Shown piece by piece: positions 32,132-35,872 of a stretch of 36,156 nt of DNA. The notes beneath the pieces are model-generated. The model did not search any database. It worked only from the letters and a program-made list of their open reading frames with translations, and had not been told where the DNA came from. The position numbers and the translations under genes were made by a program. This stretch comes from Lujinxingiaceae bacterium (GTDB lineage Bacteria > Myxococcota_A > Bradymonadia > Bradymonadales > Bradymonadaceae), in the NCBI GenBank assembly GCA_013697635.1, contig JACCWM010000154.1, forward strand, positions 1 through 36,156, written 5' to 3'. Each line of letters starts with the position of its first letter. Within the stretch, counting starts at the first letter, position 1.

Positions 32132-32407
32132 TTGAGCAAAAAAATCGAGCGAATCGAGCATGTCGTGATGGTCTGTCACGGCTCCGACTGCAAACGCGGC
32201 GGCGCCCGCGACATCTACTGCGCCGCCAAGCAGTGCACTCGCCAGCTCGGCTGCAACAAGGCAACCCAGATCGTGCGCACCCGCTGCCTGGGCTTTTGCA
32301 AGCACGGCCCGATCGTCTGCCACCAGCCCTCCAACACCTGGTTGACCGACACTGATCCACAAAAGGTCTGTGAGATGTTGCGCGAGAAGTTGGAAGGTCC
32401 CGCGTAA
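32132..32407 (+). CDS. Thioredoxin-fold [2Fe-2S] ferredoxin-like protein
   Basis: A 91-residue protein starting at a TTG (32132) with AAGG eight bases upstream. I see no better in-frame start. The pattern VCHGSDC (C15, C20) ... TRCLGFCKHGPIV (C52, C56) is the four-cysteine set of the thioredoxin-like [2Fe-2S] ferredoxins related to NuoE and the Aquifex ferredoxin; CLGxCxxGPxVxxxP is especially typical. Five additional cysteines (C30, C35, C41, C63, C80) are present. It is probably a soluble cytoplasmic electron carrier. It stands alone, divergent from oppA with 268 bp between them that contain no other gene I can support. Confidence 0.82.
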   Translation: MSKKIERIEHVVMVCHGSDCKRGGARDIYCAAKQCTRQLGCNKATQIVRTRCLGFCKHGPIVCHQPSNTWLTDTDPQKVCEMLREKLEGPA

Positions 32408-32515
32408 CCCAAATGCCATTCCGCGCATCAACCTCCCTCCATCGAACGAGTGCATATCGGCTCGCCGCCTTCGGGGAGTTCAAGAACGCTGTAGCTGCGG
32501 TTGTTGAGCGGGCTT

Positions 32516-32533
32516 TTTTACCGAACGGTAAAA
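32516..32533 (+). promoter_or_regulatory. HipB operator candidate O1
   Basis: TTTTACCGAACGGTAAAA is an inverted repeat with only the central AA asymmetric. Its core is TACCG-NN-CGGTA (32519-32530). It is the first of three related sites upstream of hipB. Confidence 0.7.
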
Positions 32534-32568
32534 TCACGCTGGCAATGCGAGGGGTTTGTCGATATTTG

Positions 32569-32580
32569 TACCGTACGGTA
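32569..32580 (+). promoter_or_regulatory. HipB operator candidate O2
   Basis: TACCGTACGGTA is a perfect 12-bp palindrome sharing both half-sites with O1. Its centre lies exactly 50 bp from that of O1. Confidence 0.7.
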
Positions 32581-32618
32581 AGTTTTGCAGGTAAATTGCC
32601 CGAATCTTGTTGGAATCA

Positions 32619-32630
32619 TCCCGCACGGTA
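32619..32630 (+). promoter_or_regulatory. HipB operator candidate O3 (degenerate)
   Basis: TCCCGCACGGTA matches O2 at 10 of 12 positions. The right half is intact and the left half weakened. Its centre is exactly 50 bp from that of O2, and it ends 12 bases before the hipB start codon, so binding would also block initiation. Confidence 0.6.
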
Positions 32631-32642
32631 AAAGTGAATGTC

Positions 32643-32921
32643 ATGGACGATTCGATTTCGGTGCTCGATGTTGCGTCTCTGGGAGAAGCCCTGCGTCAGG
32701 CGCGAAAAGAGCAGGGGCTTACGCAACAAGATTTTGCGGATATTGTCGGTGTCGGCGTGCGATTCCTCTCGGAGCTCGAGCGGGGAAAGCCGACGGCCGA
32801 GATCGGGCTGGTGTTTCAGGTGCTGCGTGGCTCCGGATTCGAGCTCGTCTTGCGCCGACGTGATCATCGTGGGCCAACGGTGACCAAGCGAGGCCCTGAA
32901 CCCGAGGACAATGAGCCGTGA
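32643..32921 (+). CDS. hipB: HipB-type antitoxin (XRE family repressor)
   Basis: 92 residues from the ATG at 32643. The upstream in-frame start at 32607 would place coding sequence across operator O3. A helix-turn-helix of the Cro/C1 type occupies about residues 14-68: LGEALRQARKEQGLTQQDFADIVGVGVRFLSELERGKPTAEI, with the GLTQQDFA and FLSELERGK motifs. The protein continues LVFQVLRGSGFELVLRRR, the strand that pairs in HipB dimers. HipB neutralises HipA and represses the operon by binding palindromic operators, and three such sites lie just upstream. The stop overlaps the hipA GTG start by 4 bp (GTGA), the usual coupling in this family. Confidence 0.92.
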   Translation: MDDSISVLDVASLGEALRQARKEQGLTQQDFADIVGVGVRFLSELERGKPTAEIGLVFQVLRGSGFELVLRRRDHRGPTVTKRGPEPEDNEP

Positions 32922-34174
32922 GAACGCTGCTCGTCGAGTTTGAGGGGCGCCTCGTCGGAGCGGCCGTGGCGGAGCAGGACGACCGGTTTTCGTTTCGCTA
33001 CGACCGAGCATGGCTCGAGCAGGCGAATGCTTTCGCGCTCAGCGCTCGCTTGCCGCGCCGCCAGGAGTCTTGGTCGGCAGGCGAGGCGCATCCGTTTTTC
33101 GCCAATCTGCTGCCGGAAGGGATCGCACGCGAGACGGTTTGCAACCGGCTGGGCATTAGCACGGACAATGACGCCGCGCTTCTCCAGGCACTGGGCGATG
33201 ATACGGCGGGCGCTTTTCGCTTCGTTAGTGCCACGCCAGGCTCGCCGGCGCGCGAACCCCGAGAGCGTCAGCTCGTGGCGGCGTCAGACCTCGAGCGCTG
33301 GGCCCAGGGCGAGCCGGCGCTGGCTTCGAATCCTGATTACCTTCCGCGGCTCTCATTGGCCGGGGCTCAGCACAAGATCGCCGTGATCGAAACGAGCGAT
33401 GGCTATGCCATCCCGGCCACGGGCGAGCCCAGCACGCATATCTTGAAGTTCGACGCTCACCGTTTTCCACATCTGACGGCCAATGAGTTTCTCACCATGG
33501 CCTTTGCCGAACAGCTCGGGCTTGCGGTTGCCCGGGTACGCCTCGATACGCGAACGACGCCGCCGTTTCTCGTGATCGAGCGCTACGACCGCGCTCAAGG
33601 CGCCCCGGGTGTTACTCGGCGCTTGCATCAGGAGGACTTTTGTCAGGCGCTGGGCGTGCTGCCATCGCGCAAATACGAGCTGGACGGCGGGCCGACCCTG
33701 CGTGAGGTCGGCGAGTGCTTGCGAGCGACATCAAGGGCTCCGGCGCTTGATGCACTCGCCCTGGTTCGGTGGGCGATTTTCTGTGTACTCGCAGGCAATG
33801 CCGACGGCCACGCGAAGAATTTGTCGATCCTCTATGGCGATCAGGGCCCCGGCCTTGCCCCATTCTACGATCTGGTTTGCACGCGCGCCTTCGAGCACCT
33901 CGATTCGAGGCTGGCCTTCTCGATCGGCGGCGAACACAACGCCGACAGGCTCGGCCGCGAACAATGGCATCTATTTGCGCGCCAACTTGCCGTTCGTCCT
34001 CGTCTGATCGATCGCGAGCTCGAGCGCCTTCTCGACGAGGCCGAGGCCAAATTCGAGCGTGCCGAGTCGCGACTTGGCGAAGTAGTCGAATACTCGGCGG
34101 CGCTGGAGCGGGTGAAGCGAGCCGTGCAAAAGCGGATTCGGGCGATGAAGAACAATCTCCGTGGAAACCGTTGA
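32918..34174 (+). CDS. hipA: HipA-type toxin (Ser/Thr kinase)
   Basis: 418 residues, the normal length for HipA. The N-terminal subdomain (1-100) has the HPFFANLLPEG motif of the family. Kinase landmarks: Ser146 in RLSLAGAQHK is the autophosphorylation-loop serine (Ser150 in E. coli), Lys177 in HILKFD is the ATP-binding lysine (Lys181, same 31-residue spacing), Asp296 in GNADGHAKNLS is catalytic, and Asp318 in FYDLV chelates Mg2+. All are intact, so the toxin looks active. HipA kinases phosphorylate glutamyl-tRNA synthetase or related targets, halting translation and causing dormancy. It starts with a GTG overlapping hipB. A Lys/Arg-rich helix ends the protein. Confidence 0.93.
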   Translation: MRTLLVEFEGRLVGAAVAEQDDRFSFRYDRAWLEQANAFALSARLPRRQESWSAGEAHPFFANLLPEGIARETVCNRLGISTDNDAALLQALGDDTAGAFRFVSATPGSPAREPRERQLVAASDLERWAQGEPALASNPDYLPRLSLAGAQHKIAVIETSDGYAIPATGEPSTHILKFDAHRFPHLTANEFLTMAFAEQLGLAVARVRLDTRTTPPFLVIERYDRAQGAPGVTRRLHQEDFCQALGVLPSRKYELDGGPTLREVGECLRATSRAPALDALALVRWAIFCVLAGNADGHAKNLSILYGDQGPGLAPFYDLVCTRAFEHLDSRLAFSIGGEHNADRLGREQWHLFARQLAVRPRLIDRELERLLDEAEAKFERAESRLGEVVEYSAALERVKRAVQKRIRAMKNNLRGNR

Positions 34175-34689: not shown

Positions 34690-35774
34690 GGTGTTTCCAG
34701 GGTCATGCTCTCCAATCCCTCAGGCCAGCGGCCGTCTCGAGCGAATTGATTGAGCACCGAAAACTCCGAATCGCGCGCGAGCACAATAAGTTGGGATTCC
34801 GGCTCGATGACCTTTTCCGGCCCAGGGCTGAACTGGGTCTGGCCCTTGGGTTGACGATTGCGATGACCAACGCATTGGTGTGGCGGCGCAGATCGATCTC
34901 CCCCAGGCGCATGCCGACCAGCGGGCTGTCCGCTGGCACGGTGATCTTGTCAATGTCGTGGTCGCGCTCGGGATGGCCGAAGAGCAGCGAGAGAAAGCTG
35001 GTGATCTGGGGCCGCACCAGCTCGGCGGCCATCTGGCGGCCGCCCAGGTTGTTGATGTAGACCACCCGGATCGCCCCGGCCATCAAGAACTTCTCCTCCG
35101 AGCGCGGATCGTCGCCGCGCGTGATAATCCGCGCGCGCTCGTTGATGCGGTGGGCCGAGATCGTCGCGAAGAGGTTCTCCTTGTCATTGCCCAGGCAAAA
35201 AGCCACGCCCTGGGGCGCGCTCGATGCCCGCGCGCCGCAGAATGTCGTCATCGGTCGCGTCACCGACGACGAAATTGACCGACTTTTTCATCGCCGCGAC
35301 AAATTCGTCGAGCCGCTGCTCGTCGTTGTCGATCAGCACGCAGTCGTTGTCCCCGCGCAGCACCTCTTCGGCGATGTTTCGACCCGTTCGCCCCAGTCCG
35401 GCGATGATGAAATGGTTCTCGAAACCCGCGACTCTGCGTTCCATCTGCCACCTTTGAAAAATATCGCGCAGCTGACCCTCGATCATCAATGCAGCCAGCG
35501 CCGATACAAAGTAGAGCACGGCCCCCATCCCGATGATCAGCAAGAAGATCGTAAAGACCTGCAGCACCGGATCGTGGCTGACCGGAATTGACTCACCGTA
35601 GCCCACGGTCGTAATGGTGATCGCGGTCATGAAGGCGCAATCGAGCAGGCTGGACTCGTCGGTGAGCAGGTAATATCCGCTCGTGCCACCGGCAAACACC
35701 AGAAGTTGCAACAACGCCGCCCTGAACAAGCGCTCGCCAGGTGAGCGCGGTTTACTGCGTCGATGGCGCCCCAT
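34686..35774 (-). pseudogene. Two-helix K+ channel with RCK (TrkA-N/TrkA-C) domain, two frameshifts
   Basis: The ATG at 35774 is preferred; a GTG at 35795 is possible. The first part has two hydrophobic helices around a pore with the selectivity filter TTVGYGE, then an RCK Rossmann domain starting HFIIAGLGRTGRNIAEEVL with the acidic beta-2 end VLIDND. At the GGGG of 35212-35215 one extra base shifts the frame. The sequence continues as QGVAFCLGNDKENLFATISA through FLMAGAIRVVYINNLGGRQMA into the TrkA-C region (DSPLVGMRLGEIDLRRHTNALVIAIVNP). Near 34846-34847 one base is missing, and the frame returns to the first, reading KGQTQFSPGPEKVIEPESQL and further to a stop at 34686. The intended product has about 362 residues. 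The homology is continuous across the joints, so decay is very recent or the sequence has errors. Confidence 0.8.
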
Positions 35775-35872
35775 CGGGTTCTCGAAGGCTCTCACTTGTC
35801 TTGACCTGCCAGCACACCAACACCCGATTGAGAAAGCGTTCTCTCATAGATTAATCTCCTCCACATCGCAAT

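Follow-up and report, generated by a model that had tools for sequence, protein, structure and literature searches.

Autoregulation of hipBA operons through several HipB operators is already known from E. coli, Caulobacter and Legionella. In E. coli, HipB binds four operators cooperatively, bends the DNA by about 70 degrees and is removed by Lon (PMC3376134). In Legionella pneumophila, three operators at even spacing are each bound by HipB, for which the authors suggest intermediate occupancy, unlike the cooperativity described in E. coli (PMC10653801). For hipBA1/hipBA2 of Caulobacter crescentus, two publications report three palindromic operator sites (PMC8545095) and operator intervals that are said to fit the higher-order complex of E. 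coli (PMC7029023); these intervals may already be about 50 bp. Here, we analyzed a window of 36,156 nucleotides from a Lujinxingiaceae bacterium (contig JACCWM010000154.1, positions 1 to 36,156), in which an earlier note, made from the sequence alone, had pointed out three hipBA operator-like palindromes with centres exactly 50 bp apart.

The array lies directly upstream of an adjacent two-gene hipBA operon, and homologous loci carry such sites, which bears out their description as hipBA operator-like. The hipB gene (32643–32921, plus strand) is predicted to encode a 92-amino-acid HTH antitoxin and putative autorepressor of the Y4mF/couple_hipB type, with GVGVRFLSELERGK as recognition helix. 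The protein matches Pfam HTH_3 and scores 69.9 bits against TIGR03070 (couple_hipB, Y4mF family; E=1.3e-19; 70.5 bits in a second search), below the cut-off of 71.65 that its paralogue in the same genome exceeds with 71.9 bits. The hipA gene (32918–34174, plus strand) starts with GTG, shares its first 4 nt with the end of hipB and encodes a 418-amino-acid Ser/Thr kinase and predicted toxin of the HipA family, with the Pfam domains Couple_hipA (2.7e-23) and HipA_C (1.3e-50). The nearest solved structures are those of Shewanella HipA (4pu5/4pu3, 3.3e-42) and of E. coli HipA, to which the motifs SLAGAQ.K, GNADGHAKN and PFYD align, so that the window HipA is likely an active kinase. Both domains are held by this single protein, and the split toxin of HipBST systems (HipS and HipT) was not found at the window locus. 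The HipA domains, the overlapping upstream HTH gene and the palindromic sites in the promoter region are those of a HipBA type II module. Just 5' of the array, a small protein resembling [2Fe-2S] thioredoxin-like ferredoxins is encoded at 32132–32407 (plus strand). A potassium-channel/TrkA-type gene (34703–35795, minus strand) is split over two frames, positions 1–63 of TrkA_N being in one ORF and 65–115 in the following one, apparently through a frameshift or an error of assembly.

The three palindromes, to which no strand is assigned, are O1 (TACCGAACGGTA, 32519–32530), O2 (TACCGTACGGTA, 32569–32580) and O3 (TCCCGCACGGTA, 32619–32630), with extended sites at about 32514–32535, 32564–32585 and 32614–32635, respectively. 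Their centres (32524.5, 32574.5 and 32624.5) confirm the exact pitch of 50 + 50 bp, and O3, said to lie immediately before the start codon, is separated by 12 nt from the probable start codon of hipB (ATG, 32643). The estimate of about 4.8 helical turns is sharpened to 4.76, and other pitches of the family keep roughly this fractional turn. Symmetry concerns five of the six base pairs in O1, all six in O2, a perfect palindrome, and four in O3. The graded series (near-perfect, perfect, degenerate) read from these sites by the earlier note holds as far as O3 is weaker in both the window and the paralogous locus, but across 33 loci O1, O2 and O3 were alike in their symmetry and in their match to the consensus, and graded affinity was thus rejected as a rule of the family. 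The logo of the family operator, AAT-N2-T[CA]CCGNNCGG[GT]A-N2-ATT, spans about 22 bp, so the true operator exceeds 12 bp. Over the whole 6.2 Mb genome, TACCGNACGGTA matches O1 and O2 only, and TMCCGNNCGGKA occurs 10 times versus 53 for a control pattern: three matches in the window array, two in the array of the paralogous hipBA and five scattered singles. A search for a sigma-70 promoter in the window returned weak candidates, none of them convincing.

The second hipBA copy of this genome (contig C183, locus L024, 658–933, minus strand) encodes a HipB 79% identical to that of the window, with the same recognition helix. Its operators, TACCGAGCGGTA, TACCGTACGGTG and TCCCGCACGGTA, the latter identical to O3, follow a pitch of 51/50 bp; two of them fit TMCCGNNCGGKA and the remaining one has a single mismatch. 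The two operons likely cross-regulate each other, a situation resembling that of C. crescentus, where hipBA1 and hipBA2 are also paralogous modules with likely cross-regulation.

Compared with the described systems, the locus shares with E. coli K-12 several palindromic operators upstream of hipBA, an HTH antitoxin and overlapping genes, and a cooperative autorepression like that of E. coli is predicted for it. However, E. coli has four TATCCN8GGATA sites at irregular spacings of 28/39/28 bp, as read from its sequence and with a phase close to that of 50 bp, versus three TMCCGNNCGGKA sites in the window; with a different operator and no detectable BLAST similarity between the two HipB proteins, the window locus does not correspond to an operator system of the E. 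coli type. The hipBST locus of L. pneumophila differs by its tripartite organization with a split toxin, the window HipA being full length, by its operator and by its longer pitch (an 18-nt site plus a 53-bp gap, i.e. 71 bp; PMC10653801), a pitch also encountered in a subclade of Myxococcota (70–73 bp). The hipBA locus of the Acidovorax plasmid pACP3.2 resembles that of the window in possessing a TCCCGNNCGGGA trio at −119/−69/−19 from the ATG, spaced by exactly 50/50 bp, but it is plasmid-borne and its record annotates no operators.

To compare the upstream regions of homologous hipBA loci, a check proposed in the earlier note, HipB homologues were drawn from 379 genomes of Myxococcota, 398 of Pseudomonadota (the phylum of a Chitinimonas genome) and plasmids. 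The compiled set contains 67 homologous loci from the two phyla and 132 neighbouring operator spacings, some operator centres being placed by hand from a motif-free scan. These regions hold two to four operators at the same pitch: 107 of the 132 spacings are 49–51 bp (76 exactly 50), and none falls within 42–47 or 53–64 bp. The motif-free scan, based on mutual similarity and symmetry alone with the 95% point of dinucleotide shuffles as threshold, gave significant pairs for 54 of the 57 loci, with a top distance of mostly 50 or 100 (2 × 50) bp. The O1–O2 distance (SD 0.57 bp) is kept as strictly as the O2–O3 distance (SD 0.53 bp; n=49 for both), while no spacer similarity was found between loci (26.5% identity vs 25.6% after shuffling). 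The array is absent at one homologue bearing HipA (L105). At six Neisseria-like loci, it is shifted by one pitch, with the last operator within the hipB frame. Recurrence of the regularity at other loci rules out chance. The conservation of the pitch within 1 bp across two phyla, despite the turnover of spacers and operators, implies that selection acts on how the repressor assembly is arranged in space. The comparison of sequences thus supports a fixed pitch kept by selection in related hipBA loci, and the refuting observation named in the earlier note, related hipBA loci devoid of the sites, was not borne out.

In a forward test, pairs of motifs were searched in the 379 genomes with no use of protein sequences, distances being taken from the printed coordinates. 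Of the 14 genomes with pairs 49–51 bp apart, 13 of which were retrieved, 12 have them next to a hipB homologue, versus none of six for pairs at 46–48 or 52–69 bp and three of five for pairs at 70–73 bp; among pairs 16–45 bp apart, the only ones linked to hipB are one at 39 bp and one at 30 bp. In addition, TMCCGNNCGGKA trios at 49–50 bp are present on three viral contigs (L188, 245–354; L189, 2893–3004; L190, 4701–4810), on which profile searches found no HipB and phmmer no HipA near the arrays. The spacers of L189 are unlike each other, and those of L188 and L190 resemble 49-bp tandem repeats. These trios are possibly decoy operators or targets of another regulator with the same geometry, and with them the 50-bp signature is not perfectly specific. 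No description of a trans-phylum 50-bp rule, of its persistence when the operators change or of a common helical phase was found in the searchable literature, and their novelty is regarded as provisional.

The main evidence for the identity of the binding protein comes from the covariation of operator sequence with the recognition helix of HipB. All 46 loci with an Arg at the R40 position of this helix have operators with a CCG core, while this core is found in only one of 11 loci lacking the Arg (Fisher p 2.5e-10, a value overstated because the loci are related and not independent). Eight loci, forming one supported clade of a HipB tree built on few columns, have different palindromes (e.g. 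TCCTCACGAAAATGAGGA, TCGAAACCATGCTTTCGA), and their pitch is still 50/50–51 bp. The recurrence of the 50-bp spacing despite changed site sequences makes the spacing look like a working part of the hipBA switch, and the covariation points to HipB as the probable ligand of O1–O3.

Departures from 50 bp (26–27, 36–39 and 65–73 bp) are placed at least five times on the HipB tree, and plasmid loci add pitches of 28, 30 and 40 bp; loci of E. coli-like and Neisseria-like type have a pitch of 27–28 bp. At a repeat of 10.5 bp, the lineage pitches fall into phase with 50 bp (mean cosine 0.60; p 0.001 by simulation and ~0.015 by the Rayleigh test), a result obtained from about 11 values, one per lineage, that were chosen by hand and are not fully independent. 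The tendency of the other pitches to share this phase is thus suggestive. Five loci from other HipA-linked subfamilies carry operator-like arrays at 30–31 and 45–47 bp, off the 50-bp phase, so that the phase claim is not established, and a helical rule common to every HipA system was rejected as stated. A cross-phylum spacing code of HipB, with pitches of ~27, 39, 50 and 71 bp separated by whole-turn steps at a constant fractional turn, by which HipBA would wind DNA into a chiral array holding the kinase at its own promoter and lineages would switch pitch by whole turns, is a tentative proposal that we consider somewhat doubtful.

We propose that O1–O3 are the operators of the adjacent HipB, whose dimers, with or without HipA, would repress hipBA, the pitch setting the rotational relation needed for a cooperative nucleoprotein array; this reading is in our opinion the probable one. 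HipB dimers, alone or as HipA2B2, would occupy the three sites and repress the operon; the fixed pitch would place neighbouring HipB(A) complexes in one rotational relation along the DNA and allow their cooperative assembly into a single repressing array, and the loss of HipB would free both promoter and kinase. The strict pitch implies that the complexes of adjacent operators would be read jointly, through direct contact, HipA or DNA shape. Binding by HipB, cooperativity, DNA bending and the participation of HipA at the window array are predicted from E. coli HipBA, and the wrapping or looping raised by the earlier note is hypothetical.

HipA–HipA contacts are described as bridging neighbouring operators in E. 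coli HipBA–promoter complexes. A specific form of the cooperative array, not exclusive of the general one, would have such contacts span neighbouring operators, the pitch then reflecting the geometry of HipA2B2 and the kinase being sequestered on the DNA. It agrees with the 28/39/28 spacings of E. coli, which are in helical phase with 39, 50 and 71 bp, and with the occurrence of arrays next to a linked hipA: five loci with an HTH gene and no intact hipA are devoid of array, although L089 is an exception to this pattern, orphan loci are very few and their regulators are more distant. One of the five, in Caulobacter phage Sansa, encodes a HipB-like regulator without HipA, next to a single TCCCGATCGGGT site. 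The Caulobacter study also ties its inverted repeats to the bridging model (PMC7029023). However, pitches of 28 and 50 bp differ by about 75 angstrom on straight DNA, and the same HipA–HipA contact could span both only if the DNA were deformed. Bridging by HipA is conceivable, but we would not expect it on present grounds.

The operators could instead be bound by HipB independently, the pitch being kept only as a bracket around the core promoter, with O2 upstream of the −35 box and the start site under O3. Within the 50-bp class, about 23 of 45 loci indeed have their best sigma-70-like −10 box starting 11–14 bp ahead of the last operator's centre, and eight of 45 have it against the preceding operator, one pitch upstream, a signal that is only moderate because the AAT flank of the operator itself contributes to the match; in Neisseria-like loci, the promoter tends to lie against the middle operator. 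The core promoter of the family is thus usually located between the last two operators, with the −10 box against the last one, and the intermediate occupancy suggested by the gel shifts of Legionella HipB (PMC10653801) would also agree with independent binding. Yet O1–O2, usually without promoter, is as strictly fixed as O2–O3, so that promoter geometry alone is insufficient, and the pitch, when it is not 50 bp, jumps to ~27, 39 or 71 bp with no drift through the empty intervals. We thus regard independent binding as improbable. Palindromes of another regulator (e.g. TetR-like) or a tandem duplication with unselected spacing, to which TACCG..CGGTA pairs found at 16–37 bp elsewhere in Myxococcota could have lent weight, are hardly credible, since these pairs do not adjoin hipB, operators vary in step with the recognition helix of the HipB encoded next to them, the rest of the genome has almost no such sites and the spacers are not duplicated.

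A regularity that was anecdotal becomes a conserved and testable constraint, and the 50-bp pitch provides a simple signature by which to locate hipBA operators, whose specificity is predicted from the recognition helix of HipB. For this bacterium, cross-regulation between its two hipBA copies is predicted. The hipBA switch is predicted to control a kinase that stops growth, and the constraint on spacing bears on whether persistence is controlled by HipBA assemblies bound at their promoter.
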